Source of the DNA: Salidesulfovibrio onnuriiensis | GTDB lineage: Bacteria; Desulfobacterota; Desulfovibrionia; Desulfovibrionales; Desulfovibrionaceae | Assembly: GCF_008001235.1 (NCBI RefSeq) | Contig: NZ_CP040751.1 | Location: forward strand, 2,587,001 to 2,651,000 | Direction: 5' to 3' | Length of the DNA: 64,000 nt | Translations under genes and position numbers: made by a program | Notes under the pieces: model-generated | The model's input: only the letters and a program-made list of their open reading frames with translations | Told to the model about the DNA's origin: nothing | Databases searched by the model: none | Shown: positions 52,756 through 60,330 of the stretch, piece by piece | Position numbering within the stretch: the first letter of the stretch is position 1 | How the letters are laid out: each line of letters starts with the position of its first letter

Positions 52756-54375
52756 TTACTTGAGATTCTCCCAACAGAGCTCGAGATGCGCGGACTCCAT
52801 GCGTCGGGTCACCAGGCTGACGGCAACGGCCAGCCCGAAGGACACGGGCAGGGCCACCACATTGGGATCGACCCATTGCATGAGCCAGAGCCAGGAGCCC
52901 TTGGCGGCCGCGGCGGCCAGGGAATCCATGCCGGTCAGCGCCTTGCACAGGCCGATGGAGGCGGATTCCTTGAGATGCACGAACAGCAGCCAGAACATGG
53001 AGGCGCAGAAGCCGCCCACCATGGAGATCTTGGCTGCCGTCTTGGTCATGCCTTTCCAGTAGAGCCCCAGCAGGTAGATGGGCAGGAAGGAGGCCGCGCA
53101 CAGGCCGAAGAAAAAGGCCGTGGCCCGGGCAATGATGGAGCCGGGCAGCACCCAGGCCCAGACCAGGGTCATGACCACCGTGACCGTGACGCCCACCTGG
53201 TTGAGCTTGAGAGAGCTTTCGCCATTCCCGGTCTTGACGAGCTGCTCGAAGAAGTCGCGTCCCAGGGAGGTTCCGCCGGCATGATACTGGGAGGACATGG
53301 TGGACATGGCCGCGGCGAACATGGCCACCAGGAAAAGACCGGCAAACCACGGAGGCATGATCTTTTCAATGTACAGGGGAATGATCTTGTCAAAGTTTCC
53401 CTGAGCCATGGCAATGGAAATCTTGCCGAACTGCTGCATGAACACGGCGTTGGACAGGGCACCCACGGTAAAGGCCACCCCGGTCATGAGCAGGATGAAC
53501 ACGCCACCCATGAGCACGGCTCGGTTGAGCTCGCGGTCGGAGGGCACGGTCATGAAGCGCACGGCAAGCTGCGGCTGGGCCAGCACCCCGATGCCCACGC
53601 CATATACTATAGTGGTATAGATGGTCAGCCCGAGGGGAGAGGCGAAGTGCGCCCCCTGGGTCCAGCCGATCATGCCGCCCTGCTGAAGCTTGGCGGGCAT
53701 GAGAGCGGCCATGTCCGTGAGGGCCTGGTGGGCCGAGGTGAAGCCGCCCAGCAGCTTGTAGGTGGTGAAAACAAGGATGAACATCATCACCGCCATGATG
53801 GAGCCCTGGAAGGCATCGGTATACATGACCGCCTTGAGTCCGCCGGTGATGACGTACAGGGCGATGAGCCCGGTAACCACGATGAGCCAGGCCTCGTAGG
53901 GCAGGCCGATGACGGTCCCGGCAAAGGAGACTTCGAGCATGCGGCAGATGCCGATGAGCACGGCGGCGGCATACACCGGAATGAACAGGAAGATGATGAT
54001 GCCCGCGAACTGCTGGATGAAACGGGAATGATAACGTCTGCCCAGCAGTTCGGGGAAGGTGTGGCTGTCCAGGGCCAGGCCCATGCGCCGGGTGCGCTTG
54101 CCGAAAAAGACCATGGCGATGAAGATTCCCACAAAAATGTTCAGGAATGTCAGCCAAAGCAGGGAAAACCCGAACAGCCCGGCCGCGCCGCCGAATCCGA
54201 TGATGGCCGAGGTTGAAATGAAGGTGGCTCCGTAGGACATGGCCATAATGAAGGGATTCATCTGCCGGCCCGCCAGCATGTAGTCCGTGGACTGCCGGGT
54301 CTGCTTGTACCCCTTGTAACCGAGATAGAAGACGATCCCGAGATAGGCGAGAATGGAAAGGGCCTTGAGAATCAT
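52756..54375 (-). CDS. Sodium:solute symporter (SSS family)
   Basis: 539 aa, about 13 membrane helices. SSS signatures: SYGATFISTSAIIGFGGAAG, GGLKAVMYTDAFQGSIM, and AAAMSTMSSQYHAGGTSLGRDFFEQL. It imports a solute with sodium. Substrate cannot be read from the family. Its start overlaps the stop of a small partner gene (ATGA). Upstream is a phenylalanine-type attenuator, suggesting an aromatic amino acid or a related compound as cargo; that is inference. Confidence 0.9.
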   Translation of the reverse strand: MILKALSILAYLGIVFYLGYKGYKQTRQSTDYMLAGRQMNPFIMAMSYGATFISTSAIIGFGGAAGLFGFSLLWLTFLNIFVGIFIAMVFFGKRTRRMGLALDSHTFPELLGRRYHSRFIQQFAGIIIFLFIPVYAAAVLIGICRMLEVSFAGTVIGLPYEAWLIVVTGLIALYVITGGLKAVMYTDAFQGSIMAVMMFILVFTTYKLLGGFTSAHQALTDMAALMPAKLQQGGMIGWTQGAHFASPLGLTIYTTIVYGVGIGVLAQPQLAVRFMTVPSDRELNRAVLMGGVFILLMTGVAFTVGALSNAVFMQQFGKISIAMAQGNFDKIIPLYIEKIMPPWFAGLFLVAMFAAAMSTMSSQYHAGGTSLGRDFFEQLVKTGNGESSLKLNQVGVTVTVVMTLVWAWVLPGSIIARATAFFFGLCAASFLPIYLLGLYWKGMTKTAAKISMVGGFCASMFWLLFVHLKESASIGLCKALTGMDSLAAAAAKGSWLWLMQWVDPNVVALPVSFGLAVAVSLVTRRMESAHLELCWENLK

Positions 54376-54536
54376 TTGCCTGCCCCCTTGTTGTCCAGCA
54401 CGTCTTCCGCGCAGGAGGGAACGGCTTCATTGCCCCTGTTGTTCCAATTCACAATACCGTAAACAACACACCCCAGCGCGGCGGCCAGACACAGCCAGAA
54501 TACCAACGCAATCTCGATGCTCCCCAAACCCAGCAT
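54372..54536 (-). CDS. Symporter small accessory protein (54 aa)
   Basis: Short gene ending TGA within the symporter's ATG. One membrane helix (about 7-29: IEIALVFWLCLAAALGCVVYG) and a polar tail with CAEDVLDNK. A TCGGGAGGTTTCC motif precedes the ATG. Position and size match the small accessory subunits found next to SSS transporters in sulfate reducers. Confidence 0.75.
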   Translation of the reverse strand: MLGLGSIEIALVFWLCLAAALGCVVYGIVNWNNRGNEAVPSCAEDVLDNKGAGK

Positions 54537-54582: not shown

Positions 54583-54728
54583 AAAAAAAGGGCCGCCAGG
54601 TCTTGCCTGCGGCCCTTGTTGCTGATGCTTTCCTTATCCTAGATGACACCAACTCCGTCAGACCGCAGGCTGCTGCGGAAATAAAAAAAGAAAAAGCTAA
54701 AAAAGCGGTAGAAGTTGTTGGTGATCAT
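54583..54728 (-). promoter_or_regulatory. Phenylalanine-type transcription attenuator of the symporter operon
   Basis: On the minus strand a Phe-rich leader ORF (54728-54639) is followed by three pairings that exclude one another. Pairing 1:2: CCGCAG (54678-54673) with CTGCGG. Antiterminator 2:3: CCTGCGG (54669-54663) with CCGCAGG (54612-54606). Terminator 3:4: GGGCCGC..AGG (54615-54606) with CCTGGCGGCCC (54600-54590) then seven Us (54589-54583). Segment 1 starts within one base of the last Phe codon, so a ribosome stalled on Phe codons would hide it and favour 2:3, letting transcription proceed. The layout is that of pheA/pheST attenuators. Confidence 0.75.
54639..54728 (-). CDS. Phe-rich leader peptide (29 aa)
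   Basis: ATG at 54728, stop TAG at 54641-54639. Residues 6-17 read FYRFFSFFFFYF: eight Phe and two Tyr in twelve codons, recalling the E. coli pheA leader peptide. The rest (RSSLRSDGVGVI) is unremarkable. The ribosome-binding site is weak (AAAAGAATTGGC). It is too short to be found by ORF callers. Function: ribosome-mediated sensing of charged tRNA-Phe. Confidence 0.65.
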   Translation of the reverse strand: MITNNFYRFFSFFFFYFRSSLRSDGVGVI

Positions 54729-54759
54729 GCCAATTCTTTTAGTTTACATTTTTAGCAAA

Positions 54760-55151
54760 TGTCAACGTTTATATGGATTTATTTTAAAAGGCCAATTGCG
54801 AAGTTTTTTTCTGAAGAAGTCACTATTTTCCTGGAAATGCGCAATGAGAATGGGGTATAATTGCATTAATCGCAAAAGGCTCATTTGAGCTTATTTCACG
54901 CTCCGCAAGGGTAAAACAGGGAATTCCGGCATCACTTTAGGCGCAAAAGCAAATTCTGGCTCATGATCGCCGGTTCAAATGAATCTTTTGCAACACTTCG
55001 CGCTTGACACGGAGATAATCACTATGCTCTCCTGACTTTCCCTCGAGAATGAGGCAAAAAATACATAATTGTAAAAAAATAAACCAAAGCCGCAGTCACA
55101 CCGCCAGATAATGACTTTTTTGGCAAACACTTTGGAGAGAGGGTACCTGCC
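54760..55151. other. Intergenic region between the symporter and glutamate synthase operons
   Basis: About 390 AT-rich bases. A TATAAA at 54776-54771 (minus strand), 16 bases after a TTGGCC, is the best promoter for the symporter leader. On the plus strand a TATAAT at 54856-54861 is a possible -10 for the glutamate synthase genes, which would give a leader of nearly 290 bases. No gene or named RNA was recognised. Confidence 0.35.
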
Positions 55152-56678
55152 TTGCTGTTTCAACCCATCAACAAGAATTACCACGAGTTTCACATCGATC
55201 GTGACAAGGACTTGTGCATCAACTGCGAAGTCTGCGTTCGCCAGTGTTCCTACGGCGCCCATTACTGGGACAAGGTGCGCGGCAAGGTCATGCACGACAA
55301 CTCGAAATGTGTAGGCTGCCACCGTTGCGAGGCATTGTGTCCCACGGCGGCCCTGCACATCCGGAAAAAACCCTCCGAATACCGCGGCGGCGCAAGCTGG
55401 CGTCCGGTGTTCATGGAGAACATCTACAAGCAGGCCGATTCCGGCGGCGTGCTGCTGGCGGGCATGGGCTCCCCCGTGGACATTCCCGTCTACTGGGACC
55501 GCATGCTCCTGGATGCCAGCCAGGTGACCAACCCGTCCATCGACCCGCTGCGCGAACCCATGGAACTCAAGACCTTCCTTGGTTCCAAGCCCAGCAAGCT
55601 GGACATCCAGACCGGCAAGGACGGCAAGCCCAAGCTCAAGACCAGGCTCACGCCGCAGCTTGAGCTGAACTATCCGATCATGTTCTCGGCCATGTCCTTC
55701 GGGTCCATCAACTTCAACCTGCACCGCGCCATGGCCCGTGCAGCCTCCGAACTGGGCATCTACTACAACACCGGTGAGGGCGGCCTGCACAAATCCTTAT
55801 ATAAGTATGGGAAGAACACCATCGTCCAGGTGGCCTCGGGACGCTTCGGCGTGCACAAGGACTACCTCCAGACGGGTGCGGGCATCGAGATCAAGGTCGG
55901 GCAGGGCGCCAAGCCGGGCATCGGCGGCCACCTGCCGGGCGAAAAGATCAACGACATGGTTTCCGAAACCCGCATGGTTCCCATCGGATCGGACGCCATT
56001 TCCCCGGCGCCGCACCACGACATCTATTCCATCGAAGACCTGCTGCAGCTCATCTACGCCCTCAAGGAAGCCTCGGAATACAAGGCTCCGGTCTCGGTGA
56101 AGATCGCCGCGGTGCACAACGTTGCCGCCATCGCCTCGGGCATTGTCCGGGCGGGCGCGGACATAGTGACCATCGACGGCATGCGCGGCGGCACGGGTGC
56201 TGCTCCGGCCATGACCCGCGACAACGTGGGCATTCCCCTCGAGCTGGCCCTGGCCGCAGTGGACCAGCGCCTGCGCGACGAGGGCATCCGCAACCAGGCC
56301 TCCATCGTGGCCGCGGGCGGCATCCGCTGTTCCGCCGACGCCATCAAGGCCATCGCGCTGGGCGCGGACGCCGTCTACATCGCCACCGGCGCTCTCATCG
56401 CCGTAGGCTGCACCCTGTGCGGCCGCTGCTACACCGGCAAATGCCCGTGGGGCATCGCCACCAACGATGCCAAGCTGGCCAAGCGCCAGAACCCGGACAT
56501 CGCGGCCAAGAAGATGGCCAACCTGGTACGTGCATGGGGCCACGAGATCGAGGAAATGCTCGGCGGTATGGGCCTCAACTCCATCGAAAGCCTGCGCGGC
56601 AACCGCGACAAGCTCCGCGCCGTGGGCCTTTCGGACACTGAAATGGACATTCTCGGCATCAAGCATGCCGGTCGATAG
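55152..56678 (+). CDS. Glutamate synthase FMN domain with N-terminal ferredoxin
   Basis: 508 aa from a TTG start behind GAGAGAGGG. Two [4Fe-4S] motifs (CINCEVCVRQCSYG, CVGCHRCEALCPTA in residues 22-65) precede a glutamate synthase central/FMN domain (about 100-480): GEGGLHKS, GQGAKPGIGGHLPGEKI, DGMRGGTGAAP and the Fe-S Cys in CTLCGRCYTGKCPWGI. This is the archaeal-type GltB FMN subunit that makes glutamate from 2-oxoglutarate and ammonia delivered by the amidotransferase encoded three genes on. Confidence 0.92.
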   Translation: MLFQPINKNYHEFHIDRDKDLCINCEVCVRQCSYGAHYWDKVRGKVMHDNSKCVGCHRCEALCPTAALHIRKKPSEYRGGASWRPVFMENIYKQADSGGVLLAGMGSPVDIPVYWDRMLLDASQVTNPSIDPLREPMELKTFLGSKPSKLDIQTGKDGKPKLKTRLTPQLELNYPIMFSAMSFGSINFNLHRAMARAASELGIYYNTGEGGLHKSLYKYGKNTIVQVASGRFGVHKDYLQTGAGIEIKVGQGAKPGIGGHLPGEKINDMVSETRMVPIGSDAISPAPHHDIYSIEDLLQLIYALKEASEYKAPVSVKIAAVHNVAAIASGIVRAGADIVTIDGMRGGTGAAPAMTRDNVGIPLELALAAVDQRLRDEGIRNQASIVAAGGIRCSADAIKAIALGADAVYIATGALIAVGCTLCGRCYTGKCPWGIATNDAKLAKRQNPDIAAKKMANLVRAWGHEIEEMLGGMGLNSIESLRGNRDKLRAVGLSDTEMDILGIKHAGR

Positions 56679-56690
56679 GGGAGAGTAGTC

Positions 56691-57137
56691 ATGAAAAGAG
56701 TCTACCCCGATAAGGATTTCTGTATTGGTTGCCATCTCTGCGAGGTGGCCTGCATCACCGCCCACTCCGAGAGCAAGGACGTGATCATCGCCTACACCCG
56801 GGAACGCCAGGAAAAAGGCCTGCAGTCCTGCAAGAAGGTCTTTGAAAAAGGCCACACCTGCGTGGCGGTCAGCTGCCGCCATTGCGACGAGCCCGCCTGC
56901 GTGGCCGCCTGCATCTCCGGCGGCCTGCACAAGGATCCCGAAACCGGGCGCACCGTGTACGACCGCGAAAAATGCGTCGGCTGCTGGTCCTGCCTCATGG
57001 CCTGTCCCTACGGCGCCATCAAGCGTCACCCCCTGGAAAGCAAGATCGTCAAGTGCGACCTGTGCCAGGACAGGGAGGAAGGCCCGGCCTGCGTGGCTGC
57101 ATGCCCCAACCAGGCCCTCAAGTTCGAGGAACGCTAA
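56691..57137 (+). CDS. Four-cluster ferredoxin-like electron carrier
   Basis: 148 aa. Four [4Fe-4S] cysteine sets: CIGCHLCEVAC, CRHCDEPACVAAC, CVGCWSCLMACPYG and CDLCQDREEGPACVAACPNQA. This is the beta-subunit-type wiring (HycB/NrfC-like). It should carry electrons between the FAD oxidoreductase downstream and the FMN domain upstream. 13 bases separate it from the latter. Confidence 0.9.
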   Translation: MKRVYPDKDFCIGCHLCEVACITAHSESKDVIIAYTRERQEKGLQSCKKVFEKGHTCVAVSCRHCDEPACVAACISGGLHKDPETGRTVYDREKCVGCWSCLMACPYGAIKRHPLESKIVKCDLCQDREEGPACVAACPNQALKFEER

Positions 57138-57164
57138 CCGTCACCGGCAATCGGAGTTCACATC

Positions 57165-58442
57165 ATGAAATACGTCATCATCGGAAACGGCATTGCATCC
57201 ATCGGGGCCATTGAAGGCATCCGCCAGGTGGACAAGGAAAATCCCATCCTGGTCATCGGCGCTGAAAACGCCCCCGCATACGGCCGTCCGCTCATTTCCT
57301 ATCTGCTGGCAGGCAAGATCAAGGCCGACCGCATGGCCCTGCGTCCCGCCAAGTTCTACGAGCTGAACAAGGTGGAGCTCAAGCTGGGCACCACCGTAAC
57401 CAGCCTGGACACCAAAAAGAAGGTCATCACCACGGAAGGCGGCGAGACCATCAAGTACGAGAACCTGCTGCTGGCCACCGGCGGCACGCCGTTCACCCCG
57501 CCCATCCCGGGTTCCGAGGGCACCGGCGTCTATAACTTCACCAATCTGGAGCACGCCCAGGAGCTCATCGGCATGGCCCGGGACATCAAGCGGGCCGTGG
57601 TCATCGGCGGCGGTCTCATCGGCCTCAAGGCCGCCGAGGCGCTCTTTGACCGGGGCGTGGACGTGACTATTGTGGAGCTTTCCGACCGGGTGCTCAGCCT
57701 GGCCTTTGACGAAAACGCCGCAGGCCTGGCCGCGGGCCGCCTGGACGAAGTGGGCCTCAAGGTCCGCACCGGCGTTTCGGTCAAGGAAATCCAGCGCGAC
57801 GCCGAGGGCGGCGTGGTGGGCTGCCACCTCACGGACGGTGGCTTCCTCCAGACCGAAATCGTTGTCATCGCCATCGGCGTGGTGCCCAACTACAACCTGG
57901 CCAAGGACGCAGGCGTCAAGGTGGACCGGGGCATCATGGTGGACGACCACATGTCCACGGATGCCAAGGGCGTCTACGCCGCAGGCGACGTGGCCCAGGC
58001 TCTGGACATGCTGGCGGGCGAAAACCGCGTGGTGCCCATCTGGCCCAACGCCTACAACCAGGGATTCTGCGCGGGCAAGAACATGGCCGGCAAGGAAACC
58101 GGATATTCCGGCGGCCTGGCCATGAACTCCATCAGCTTCTACGGCCTGCCCACCATTTCCGTTGGCACAGTCAACCCGCCCGAAGGCGACACAAGCTTCG
58201 AGGCGGCCATGAAGCTGGACGACAAGAAAAAAAGCTACCGCAAGCTGGTGTTCCAGAACGACGTCCTCGTGGGATACGTGCTGGTCGGCGATATCGACCA
58301 GGCGGGCATGTTCACTTCCTTCGTGAAGTTCAAGCTGCCCATCGAAGGGGAAACCAGGGCCAAGCTCATGGCCGGCGAACCCGACGCACTGCTCTGGCCC
58401 GACGAGTTCTTCAACGAGACCTGGAACCCCGAGGCCGTCTAG
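57165..58442 (+). CDS. FAD/NAD(P)-dependent oxidoreductase of the glutamate synthase operon
   Basis: 425 aa. FAD loop IGNGIASIGAIEGIR, NAD(P) loop VVIGGGLIGLKAAEALF (about 145-160) and YAAGDVAQA (about 270), then a C-terminal interface domain: the NADH oxidase/nitrite reductase (NirB-like) large family. It probably feeds reducing equivalents into GOGAT, in place of GltD. 27 bases from the ferredoxin. Confidence 0.88.
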   Translation: MKYVIIGNGIASIGAIEGIRQVDKENPILVIGAENAPAYGRPLISYLLAGKIKADRMALRPAKFYELNKVELKLGTTVTSLDTKKKVITTEGGETIKYENLLLATGGTPFTPPIPGSEGTGVYNFTNLEHAQELIGMARDIKRAVVIGGGLIGLKAAEALFDRGVDVTIVELSDRVLSLAFDENAAGLAAGRLDEVGLKVRTGVSVKEIQRDAEGGVVGCHLTDGGFLQTEIVVIAIGVVPNYNLAKDAGVKVDRGIMVDDHMSTDAKGVYAAGDVAQALDMLAGENRVVPIWPNAYNQGFCAGKNMAGKETGYSGGLAMNSISFYGLPTISVGTVNPPEGDTSFEAAMKLDDKKKSYRKLVFQNDVLVGYVLVGDIDQAGMFTSFVKFKLPIEGETRAKLMAGEPDALLWPDEFFNETWNPEAV

Positions 58443-58464
58443 GGCCCGTGCATACGGAGGAACA

Positions 58465-59562
58465 ATGAAAGCTCCAGAAAGATACTACGATTTTGAAAAG
58501 GATATATCCGGCTGCGGCGTCTTCGGCGTCATCAGCAGGAAGGGCAACCTGATCAAGGGGGACATGCCCATCAACGCCATGGCCTGCATGCATGATCGCG
58601 GCAACGGCTTGGGCGGCGGTTTCGCGGCCTACGGCATCTACCCGGAAATGGCCGACAAGTACGCCTTCCACATCATGTGCGACGACCGCAGCGGGGTGGA
58701 CGCTTCCGAGGAAGTGCTCAAGCGCTACTGCACGGTTCACGAATACGAACCCATTCCCACGCGCAAGACCCTGGCCGTAACCAATCCGCCGCTGGTCAAC
58801 CGCTACTTCGTGTCCCCCAACTTCGACCCGGCCCACGAAATGTCCGAACTGCCCGAAGAGGACTACATGGTCTCCGTGATCATGAAGATCAACTCGTCGG
58901 TTCCCGGCGCCTACGTCTTCTCCAGCGGCAAGAACATGGGCGCGTTCAAGGGCGTGGGATACCCCGAGGACATCGCCGACTTCTTCCGGCTGGACGAATA
59001 CAGCGCGCACATCTGGACCGGCCACAACCGGTTCCCCACCAACACCCCGGGCTGGTGGGCGGGGGCGCACCCGTTCACGCTCCTGAACTGGTCCATCGTG
59101 CACAATGGCGAAATCTCGTCCTACGGCATCAACCGCCGCTACCTGTGCGAACACGACTACCTGTGCTCGCTCATGACCGACACCGAGGTGGTGGCCTACG
59201 AACTGGACCTGCTCATCCGCAAGCACGGCCTCTCCTGGGAAATGGCGGCCAAGGTCTTCGCCCCTCCGTTCTGGGACGAGATCGAGCGCATGGACAAGGA
59301 CGACAAGGAACTTTACACAGCGCTGCGCGCCACCTACGGCGCGGGCATGCTCAACGGCCCGTTCGCCATCCTGGTGGCCGACAACAACCGGCTCATGGGG
59401 CTCAACGACCGCATCAAGCTGCGGCCCCTGCTGGTGGCGGAAAAGGACGACATGGTGTTCATGTCCAGTGAGGAATCCTCCATCCGCGAAGTGTGTCCCG
59501 AACTGGATCATGTCTGGATGCCCAAGGCGGGCGAACCCGTCATCGTGGATATGGAGGCGTAA
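58465..59562 (+). CDS. Glutamate synthase glutaminase subunit (class II amidotransferase)
   Basis: 365 aa. Catalytic Cys17 in SGCGVFGVIS; the preceding 16 residues look like a cleavable propeptide, as in the GOGAT large chain. HDRGNGLGGGFAAYG and GHNRFPTNTPGWWAGAHPF plus NGEISSYGINR are the class II signature. It releases ammonia from glutamine for the FMN subunit. Stop is 3 bases before the next gene. Confidence 0.9.
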   Translation: MKAPERYYDFEKDISGCGVFGVISRKGNLIKGDMPINAMACMHDRGNGLGGGFAAYGIYPEMADKYAFHIMCDDRSGVDASEEVLKRYCTVHEYEPIPTRKTLAVTNPPLVNRYFVSPNFDPAHEMSELPEEDYMVSVIMKINSSVPGAYVFSSGKNMGAFKGVGYPEDIADFFRLDEYSAHIWTGHNRFPTNTPGWWAGAHPFTLLNWSIVHNGEISSYGINRRYLCEHDYLCSLMTDTEVVAYELDLLIRKHGLSWEMAAKVFAPPFWDEIERMDKDDKELYTALRATYGAGMLNGPFAILVADNNRLMGLNDRIKLRPLLVAEKDDMVFMSSEESSIREVCPELDHVWMPKAGEPVIVDMEA

Positions 59563-59565
59563 ACC

Positions 59566-60330
59566 ATGACCAAGACCAAGACGAAAAAGATCACCCTGGA
59601 CGCGAAAGGCGTCTACTACAAGCAATTCAATGAAACGATTCGCGAAAAGGTTCGCGAGGGATACACCGACTTCACCCTGTCCAATGTCAACGGCCAGCGC
59701 TACATCGGCACGGCCCTGGAGGGCGACCTCACGTTCACCGTCGAGGGCGTACCCGGCCAGGATATGGCCTCGTTCATGCGCGGCCCGTATATCCGCGTGA
59801 AGGCCAACGGCCAGGACGGCATTGGCAACACCATGGACGACGGCAAGGTGGTGGTGGAAGGCATGGTCGGCGACGTGGCCGGCTACGCCATGCGCGGCGG
59901 CCGCATCTACATCAAGGGAGATGTCGGCTATCGTGTCGGAATTCATATGAAAGCCTACATGGACCACCAGCCCATCATCGTGGTGGGGGGCAAGGCCGGG
60001 GACTTCCTCGGCGAATATATGGCCGGTGGAATTATTTTGCTCTTGGGAATGTTTTCTGGTAAGCCTGATGCGCCTCTTTCGGGTCGTAGCCTCGGAACAG
60101 GCATGCACGGTGGCGTCATCTACGTTCGCGGCGAGGTGCCCGAGCACCAGCTCGGACCCGGCCTGCATTCGCAGCCCGTGGACAGCGACGACCTCAAGGC
60201 CATCAAGGCCATCGTCAAGGATTACGCCAAAGAGCTTGACTTGAACGCCGACGAAATCTTAAGCGAAGGGTTTACCAAGATTCGTCCGTTCTCTCACAGG
60301 CCGTACGGCAATCTGTACGTGCCGACCTAG
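59566..60330 (+). CDS. Glutamate synthase GXGXG (GltB3-like) subunit
   Basis: 254 aa. A right-handed beta-helix of repeats with GxxG turns (e.g. GNTMDDGKVVVEGMVGDVAGYAMRGGRIYIKGDVGYRVG), matching the C-terminal domain of glutamate synthase large subunit, shared with FwdC. It has a structural role. Last gene of the five-gene split GOGAT. Within it, 60020-60070 is locally less G+C-rich. Confidence 0.9.
   Translation: MTKTKTKKITLDAKGVYYKQFNETIREKVREGYTDFTLSNVNGQRYIGTALEGDLTFTVEGVPGQDMASFMRGPYIRVKANGQDGIGNTMDDGKVVVEGMVGDVAGYAMRGGRIYIKGDVGYRVGIHMKAYMDHQPIIVVGGKAGDFLGEYMAGGIILLLGMFSGKPDAPLSGRSLGTGMHGGVIYVRGEVPEHQLGPGLHSQPVDSDDLKAIKAIVKDYAKELDLNADEILSEGFTKIRPFSHRPYGNLYVPT

Follow-up and report, generated by a model that had tools for sequence, protein, structure and literature searches.

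A probable phenylalanine attenuator ahead of a sodium:solute symporter operon in Salidesulfovibrio onnuriiensis and other Desulfovibrionales

Results and discussion

A minus-strand operon in the Salidesulfovibrio onnuriiensis genome (a single 3.89-Mb contig) consists of a leader attenuator, a gene for a small accessory protein and a gene for a symporter of the sodium:solute symporter (SSS) family. Our confidence is high that a ribosome-mediated transcription attenuator responsive to the charging of tRNA-Phe controls the operon; on the sequence of the leader and its conservation in relatives, attenuation by Phe-tRNA is very likely. In the following, the window is the whole stretch of 64,000 nucleotides that was analyzed. 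The features of the operon are:

54760-54765, minus strand: -35 box TTGACA; TTGAC is found at the matching distance in relatives
54736-54741, minus strand: probable -10 box TAAAAG with an 18-nt spacer to the -35 box; predicted from spacing
54639-54728, minus strand: leader ORF of 29 codons, MITNNFYRFFSFFFFYFRSSLRSDGVGVI; from ORF translation and conservation in relatives
54705-54728, minus strand: probable strand 1, at the start of the leader ORF; its partner is 54667-54642 (-22.9 kcal/mol)
54678-54713, minus strand: control codons 6-17, eight Phe and two Tyr; Phe run conserved in 24 congeners
54660-54670, minus strand: strand 2, GCCTGCGGTCT; alternative partner of strands 1 and 3
54605-54617, minus strand: strand 3, AAGGGCCGCAGGC; joins strand 2 in the antiterminator or serves as 5' arm of the terminator
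54588-54600, minus strand: strand 4, CCTGGCGGCCCTT; 3' arm of the terminator, covaries in one genus
54583-54589, minus strand: seven-U run ending the intrinsic terminator; from sequence
54372-54536, minus strand: symporter small accessory protein of 54 aa; GGGAGG just upstream at 54547-54542; NCBIfam NF045580, 49.1 bits against a cut-off of 35
52756-54375, minus strand: SSS-family sodium:solute symporter of 539 aa; Pfam SSF, 182.1 bits against a cut-off of 22.8

The 29-codon leader with eight Phe and two Tyr in codons 6-17, described in an initial annotation made from the sequence alone, was confirmed at 54728-54639, as were the 2:3 and 3:4 pairings and the seven Us at the coordinates listed.

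The operon genes

The 54-aa protein passes the curated cut-off of NF045580 and the symporter that of Pfam SSF, and the ATG of the symporter overlaps the TGA of the accessory protein (shared ATGA). A structure model of the symporter (pLDDT 85) agrees with the SSS family – its fold matches SGLT, SiaT and CHT1, and SGLT-MAP17 complexes are the best Foldseek matches – and, as far as this model goes, the cargo is not readable from it. Among equivalog models PutP and PanF score best, both below cut-off (190.9 bits against 515.5 for PutP, TIGR02121), and a monocarboxylate transporter model also matches below its cut-off. The nearest named relatives of the symporter belong to Pseudodesulfovibrio. A comparison of the small accessory protein with plasmids gave no match.

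A split glutamate synthase cluster at 55152-60330 of the window is transcribed divergently from the operon; it encodes a ferredoxin-GOGAT synthase domain, an Fe-S protein, a PadH-like NAD(P)H oxidoreductase, a glutaminase and GXGXG proteins.

Conservation of the attenuator

Symporter homologues were searched for in 348 genomes of the order at E up to 1e-100, and close homologues were found at 82 places in 71 genomes. Three of these places are cut before the leader, leaving 79 scorable. The attenuator is present at 65 of the 79, the window included, and absent from 14; it is also absent from five homologues apparently outside the order (L015, L017, L019-L021). The 65 attenuators hold 64 distinct leaders (L032 is identical to L031), and the arrangement of the window was thus found again at 63 other distinct loci. 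Besides L032, the set of 64 leaves out L006-L014, L016 and L018, which are second copies of loci already counted (two of them cut), and L050, L081 and L098, which are cut.

Most of the distinct leaders are dominated by Phe: 56 have at least five Phe codons, two are mixed and six are Tyr-rich. Together with the 65 of 79 homologues that carry the attenuator, this supports the initial annotation, which had read the region as a Phe-type attenuator upstream of an SSS operon. The leader ORF is 25-41 codons long across the relatives, a typical one being MNTNQNRFSFFFFFSFRFFRSACGLGVCV in the genus of the window and MNTNKALFFFFNFFSFTSPVVWRCSLA in another genus. The peptide is strongly conserved within the genus of the window, and the Phe codons vary synonymously at several positions among 24 congeners. 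What persists from one genus to another is chiefly the aromatic run, the sequence of strand 2 and the terminator; much of the remaining peptide differs. A terminator lies between the leader ORF and the first gene at all of the 64 loci, 54 of them identified by pattern and the remaining 10 by eye.

Ahead of the 19 homologues with no Phe or Tyr leader, a crude script and inspection by eye found no convincing leader of another type, and there were no Rfam hits in 18 of these 19 loci. Upstream of the four distant SSS paralogues of the S. onnuriiensis genome, nothing aromatic was found among the best two ORFs per strand, except ORFs with three Trp.

Promoter and leaderless leader ORF

In 63 of the 64 attenuators TTGAC is found 35-38 nt upstream of the leader ATG. 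At loci with several in-frame ATGs, the one nearest to 37 nt was taken; most loci have one. In the window the ATG follows TAAAAG by 7 nt. Transcription is predicted to start at the leader AUG or within about 3 nt of it, and because of the near-constant distance from TTGAC to ATG the leader ORF is probably leaderless. A generic promoter and terminator scan listed neither the promoter nor the terminator of the window; the hairpin of this terminator has a one-base bulge. In one genus (L054, L057-L059, L062, L065, L066), a palindrome resembling AGTAAGTAAAYGCTTACT lies between the -35 and -10 boxes, possibly a repressor site.

Pairing of the leader RNA

Folding of the leader, a check that the initial annotation had proposed, gave a 194-nt leader more stable than its shuffles (z -2.35; 4 of 200 shuffles equally good). 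The terminator (54617-54588, with seven T at 54589-54583) has a predicted energy of -21.3 kcal/mol. The 2:3 pairing CCTGCGG/CCGCAGG lies within an 11-bp helix of 54670-54660 with 54615-54605 (-23.7 kcal/mol). Pairings that involve the leader ORF were compared with those in synonymous recodings that preserve the peptide. In the window, with 1000 recodings for each of the two pairings, the 2:3 pairing was rarely equalled (p 0.002), and so was the pairing of the start of the ORF with its end (p 0.001), at -22.9 kcal/mol compared to a mean of -10.9 in the recoded set.

All 64 leaders have the 2:3 pairing, at -16.5 to -25.5 kcal/mol; strand 2, which reads GCCTGCGG or a variant of it, is located in the final third of the leader ORF. 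Thus both the Phe run and the 2:3 pairing, whose loss in close relatives had been named beforehand as counting against an attenuator, are kept. Strands 2 and 3 are paired in 97.9% of cells in the alignment of 24 congeners, one of which has CCTACGG/CCGTAGG, and in 100% of cells in 13 leaders of a second genus, with no double changes; the pairing hardly covaries because it is nearly invariant. It beat recoding at p<0.05 in 4 of 24 representatives (window included) and at p<0.5 in 23 (L077 gave 0.78), a low yield due to the peptide, which fixes much of strand 2.

For the terminator, strands 3 and 4 are paired in 94.9% of cells in the 24 congeners, with 10 double-change cells, a count as high being reached in none of 500 shuffles. 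Eight of the 10 concern the same pair and could go back to a single inherited change, and the number of further pair types in this genus was no better than that of the shuffles (500 of 500). The second genus had 90.8% of cells paired, no double changes and no covariation.

The start of the ORF is, from these comparisons, the best-supported strand 1 in most clades. In the genus of the window (ATGAACAC..ACC.AACCGC) it pairs with strand 2 and on through to the stop codon, enclosing the Phe run. Of 24 representatives, 15 have an ORF-start pairing better than synonymous recoding at p<0.05, and 22 at p<0.5; the nine above 0.05 include L071 (0.87) and L075 (0.61). When partners were exchanged among the 24, the own partner had a mean rank of 4.5, with 11.5 expected. 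Within single genera, covariation appears to give the pairing modest support – in the genus of the window 77.7% of cells are paired and 49 of 500 shuffles were as high, and in the second genus the support is weak, with 77 of 500 shuffles as high. Little or no such pairing is seen in L067, L071, L072, L074 and L075.

The initial annotation had proposed a different 1:2 pairing, a local hairpin of CCGCAG (54678-54673) with CTGCGG (54668-54663). It exists in the window (-10.3 kcal/mol), where it showed no excess over recoding (0.13), but it is not conserved as such: it beat recoding at 0.05 in none of the 64 leaders, has about four weak pairs in most congeners and was rejected as a conserved element, the ORF start being the better-supported strand 1 in most clades. 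The hairpin is strong in the window (six pairs) and in L067 and L071 (seven pairs each), the latter two being loci with no ORF-start pairing, and it is fairly strong in the Tyr leaders; it may have a role in these leaders. The covariation expected in all three stems was thus seen for 3:4 in the genus of the window; it was lacking for 3:4 in the second genus, slight for the nearly invariant 2:3 and modest for the ORF start.

In a 27-row alignment (A1), MAFFT shifted the start of three rows (the window, L001; L026; L035), and no covariation count was taken from it. The alignment of 24 congeners (A2) excludes these three, which are included in the survey of 2:3 pairing and in the recoding tests. 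A Halodesulfovibrio alignment (A4) was left out of the pair counts.

These pairings suggest the following mechanism. Transcription would start at or beside the leader AUG. When Phe is plentiful, the ribosome would pass the Phe run to the stop codon and mask strand 2, so that 3:4 forms and transcription ends. When Phe-tRNA is scarce, the ribosome would stall in the Phe run, over strand 1, so that 2:3 pairs and the operon is read. When translation is absent, the ORF start would pair with strand 2, leaving the terminator to form.

Tandem symporters and Tyr leaders

Six Halodesulfovibrio-like genomes have two symporter genes in tandem, each with one attenuator. The leader of copy A is of the Phe type (MNKLNTNFFFAFFGFRGIQACGSVECVRA), mixed in G202 (4 Phe, 2 Tyr). 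Copy B, the second of the two, has a Tyr leader (MNTINHHMNSYFYAYYGYRVIKTCGSVECV) and accounts for all six Tyr-rich leaders. In a tree of 83 symporter proteins (a quick search, no bootstrap), leader type is strongly clustered, with 6 changes compared to about 25 for shuffled labels. The symporters with Tyr leaders form one group (SH-aLRT 98), and therefore the control codons probably changed to Tyr after the duplication. At another locus (L075:4730-6334), a second tandem symporter copy lies about 100 nt behind the first, with no leader of its own.

A comparison of the proteins with Phe leaders and those with Tyr leaders identified no specificity residue. The cleanest separation is at position 302 (Phe in 33 of 33, Tyr in 6 of 6), at which both residues also occur in proteins with no leader. 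It was rejected as a specificity residue, as an alignment to vSGLT and its site residues did not place it at the sugar site.

Sister attenuators on aromatic genes

A covariance model (R1) was built from the attenuators, one row of which (L108) entered with a wrong end. It has four full-length matches below E 1e-6 in the S. onnuriiensis genome. One is the symporter leader. Another, with the leader MTNRTAYRFFFFFGFFFFGKTCGPGVH, precedes a second ADTH synthase (family confirmed), and a third, with the Phe/Tyr/Trp leader MDKFFSNNLFSYLYFWYWYARARGHGRVVL, precedes an aromatic operon for ADTH synthase, dehydroquinate synthase II, prephenate dehydratase with a chorismate mutase domain and EPSP synthase. 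The fourth (L126, G000:C1:2842527) has the Phe leader MIKLFFFRFFFFMDLT and precedes paaK; the encoded phenylacetate-CoA ligase reaches 631 bits, slightly short of the 646 required for PaaK. An R1 match at E up to 0.01 is found in 314 of the 348 genomes of the order, and some of these matches may cover the terminator alone.

Twenty R1-matched places, two in the S. onnuriiensis genome and 18 in other genomes, were typed by tblastn of the S. onnuriiensis enzymes. ADTH synthase followed by dehydroquinate synthase II was found at 10, ADTH synthase with no dehydroquinate synthase II at nine, and S. onnuriiensis paaK at one. With the aromatic operon of S. onnuriiensis (L106) added to the 10 other places, Phe, Tyr and Trp codons are all present in 11 of 11 aromatic-operon leaders. 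Trp codons are missing from all nine leaders of the second isozyme, which contain 6-10 Phe and 0-2 Tyr. Judged by their sequences, the codons of the sister attenuators follow the product, and this is the main argument that the symporter would serve Phe supply.

Aromatic-operon leaders with mixed Phe/Tyr/Trp were noted at L106:5270-5430, L107-L110, L134, L136-L143 and L145, and Phe-dominated leaders on the second ADTH synthase isozyme at L127-L133, L135 and L144. The second isozyme is reminiscent of E. coli, in which the isozymes of the first step are differently regulated. No Phe leader with a terminator was found within 1.5 kb of prephenate dehydratase in seven genomes; at L102 a Phe-rich ORF with no terminator lies near this gene. 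The aromatic-operon leaders are farther upstream than 1.5 kb, and were found in all five genomes then examined.

An ORF rich in aromatic codons and preceded at 33-40 nt by TTGAC was found at 25 of 30 paaK loci of the genus and, by the same rule, at 15 of 30 in a second set. The Phe leader of paaK suggests that PaaK works toward Phe synthesis in those genomes. Overall, a Phe-rich attenuator-like leader was seen at paaK in many genomes (L146-L175, L181-L203). A further arrangement in the S. onnuriiensis genome (L116:1417-1600, around G000:C1:3785555) has three consecutive Trp codons at the 3' end of an ORF, a terminator-like hairpin and then, by eye, anthranilate synthase; it is perhaps a Trp attenuator that uses the tail of the preceding gene.

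We consider it an even question whether all of these belong to a single aromatic attenuation regulon of the Desulfovibrionales. Such a regulon would be built from one leaderless, codon-tunable kind of attenuator, with Phe/Tyr/Trp codons on the aromatic operon and Phe codons on the second ADTH synthase, on paaK and on the SSS symporter as a dedicated Phe carrier; a switch of the leader to Tyr after tandem duplication would have given paired Phe and Tyr carriers.

The cargo of the symporter

Phe is the likely cargo of the symporter. It is the simplest reading of the leader codons, which by the same reasoning would have copy B of the Halodesulfovibrio-like genomes import Tyr, and it is strengthened by the Tyr-leader paralogues and by the sister attenuators with codons matching their products. 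The main rival accepts the same Phe-tRNA attenuator and has the symporter import phenylacetate or phenylpyruvate, from which PaaK and indolepyruvate:ferredoxin oxidoreductase (IOR) would make Phe. An aromatic precursor is conceivable because paaK is in the same regulon – by its own Phe leader in S. onnuriiensis and by the aromatic-rich ORFs at most paaK loci of the genus. IOR is present in the S. onnuriiensis genome, PaaK is present in all 39 symporter genomes of other genera that were searched, and Phe can be made from phenylacetate and phenylpyruvate according to a passage in a rumen paper (PMC7356843). The match to the monocarboxylate transporter model points the same way; the best equivalog models are nevertheless PutP and PanF, and all three are below cut-off. 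The six genomes with the Phe and Tyr transporter pair speak against precursor import. No IOR-alpha passing the family threshold was found in any of them, compared to 21 of the 22 other genomes searched, the exception being cut off at a contig end, and an aromatic leader at the expected spacing was found at none of five paaK loci of the Halodesulfovibrio-like genus, one of them from the six pair genomes. Control of the transporter therefore persists where the PaaK/IOR route looks absent or outside Phe control. The IOR argument is weakened by a divergent homologue of about 830 aa, the sole IOR-alpha homologue in these genomes (G202, G204, G207-G210). Overall, we regard precursor import as unlikely.

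It is less probable still that the attenuator responds to Phe on behalf of a transporter that carries an unrelated solute or exports, Phe shortage being a proxy for amino acid or nitrogen stress. SSS proteins have many different cargoes, but the leader codons of the sister attenuators follow the product, from Phe/Tyr/Trp on the operon to no Trp on the isozyme, and the duplicated transporter was retuned to Tyr instead of staying on Phe. Very improbable, in our judgement, is a functional micropeptide or an sRNA, with attenuation playing a minor part or none. Strong conservation of the peptide within the genus of the window speaks for this reading, as does the ability of leader peptides to act in trans, described for peTrpL in part of PMC7298713; between genera, however, it is mainly the aromatic run, strand 2 and the terminator that are kept, and a Tyr version exists. 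Import of Phe through an operon under Phe-tRNA attenuation is thus the reading we prefer.

Relation to known systems

The best Rfam hit of the leader is RF01859 (Phe_leader), over the full model (1-125), at 29 bits and E 0.0034. It is not a member of this family because its score is below the gathering score of 55, although it would work alike, with a Phe-run leader peptide, a 2:3 antiterminator and a 3:4 terminator. We take RF01859 to cover the pheA and pheST leaders of gammaproteobacteria. The attenuator described here differs in that it controls a transporter operon, that its strand 1 is in most clades probably the beginning of the ORF, whose pairing encloses the Phe run, and that, with transcription starting where predicted, the leader AUG would be too close to the 5' end for an ordinary ribosome binding site.

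T-box RNA binds tRNA directly, whereas here the translating ribosome would read the codons. The two are alike in that tRNA charging controls a transporter (a predicted response here) and the codon names the cargo: for T-box amino acid transporters of Firmicutes, the codon has been used in this way, giving Phe for NSS and Tyr for NhaC and NSS transporters (portions of PMC2494555). One section of that paper has seven T-box transporter families, and SSS is not among them. A leader AUG at the 5' end of the transcript is known from the leaderless leader ORFs of Sinorhizobium meliloti trpL and Corynebacterium diphtheriae ilvB, as stated in sections of PMC7298713 and PMC5784534, respectively. Those starts are reported in the papers; here, promoter spacing predicts the start, and the control codons are for Phe or Tyr.

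The SGLT-MAP17 complex is likewise an SSS-fold carrier with a small partner protein, MAP17. Its cargo is sugar, and the likeness to the symporter and its 54-aa protein is one of arrangement.

The literature matches listed include no report of a Phe or Tyr attenuator in Desulfovibrionales or on an SSS symporter, a weak negative, as most subscription literature is outside the search; likewise, the portions of a premature-terminator survey (PMC2965389) covered here have no mention of Desulfo- or phenylalanine.

Conclusions

The attenuator would extend classic attenuation to a lineage, the Desulfovibrionales, for which it is unreported among those matches. The leader codons give the unassigned group of SSS symporters with small subunits a testable cargo, as has been done with T-boxes, and the pair of Phe and Tyr leaders is a natural experiment on the re-coding of an attenuator after gene duplication. 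The Phe leader of paaK suggests a direction for the anaerobic aromatic route. If the regulon reading is true, PaaK works toward Phe synthesis in these organisms and the SSS symporter is a dedicated Phe carrier.
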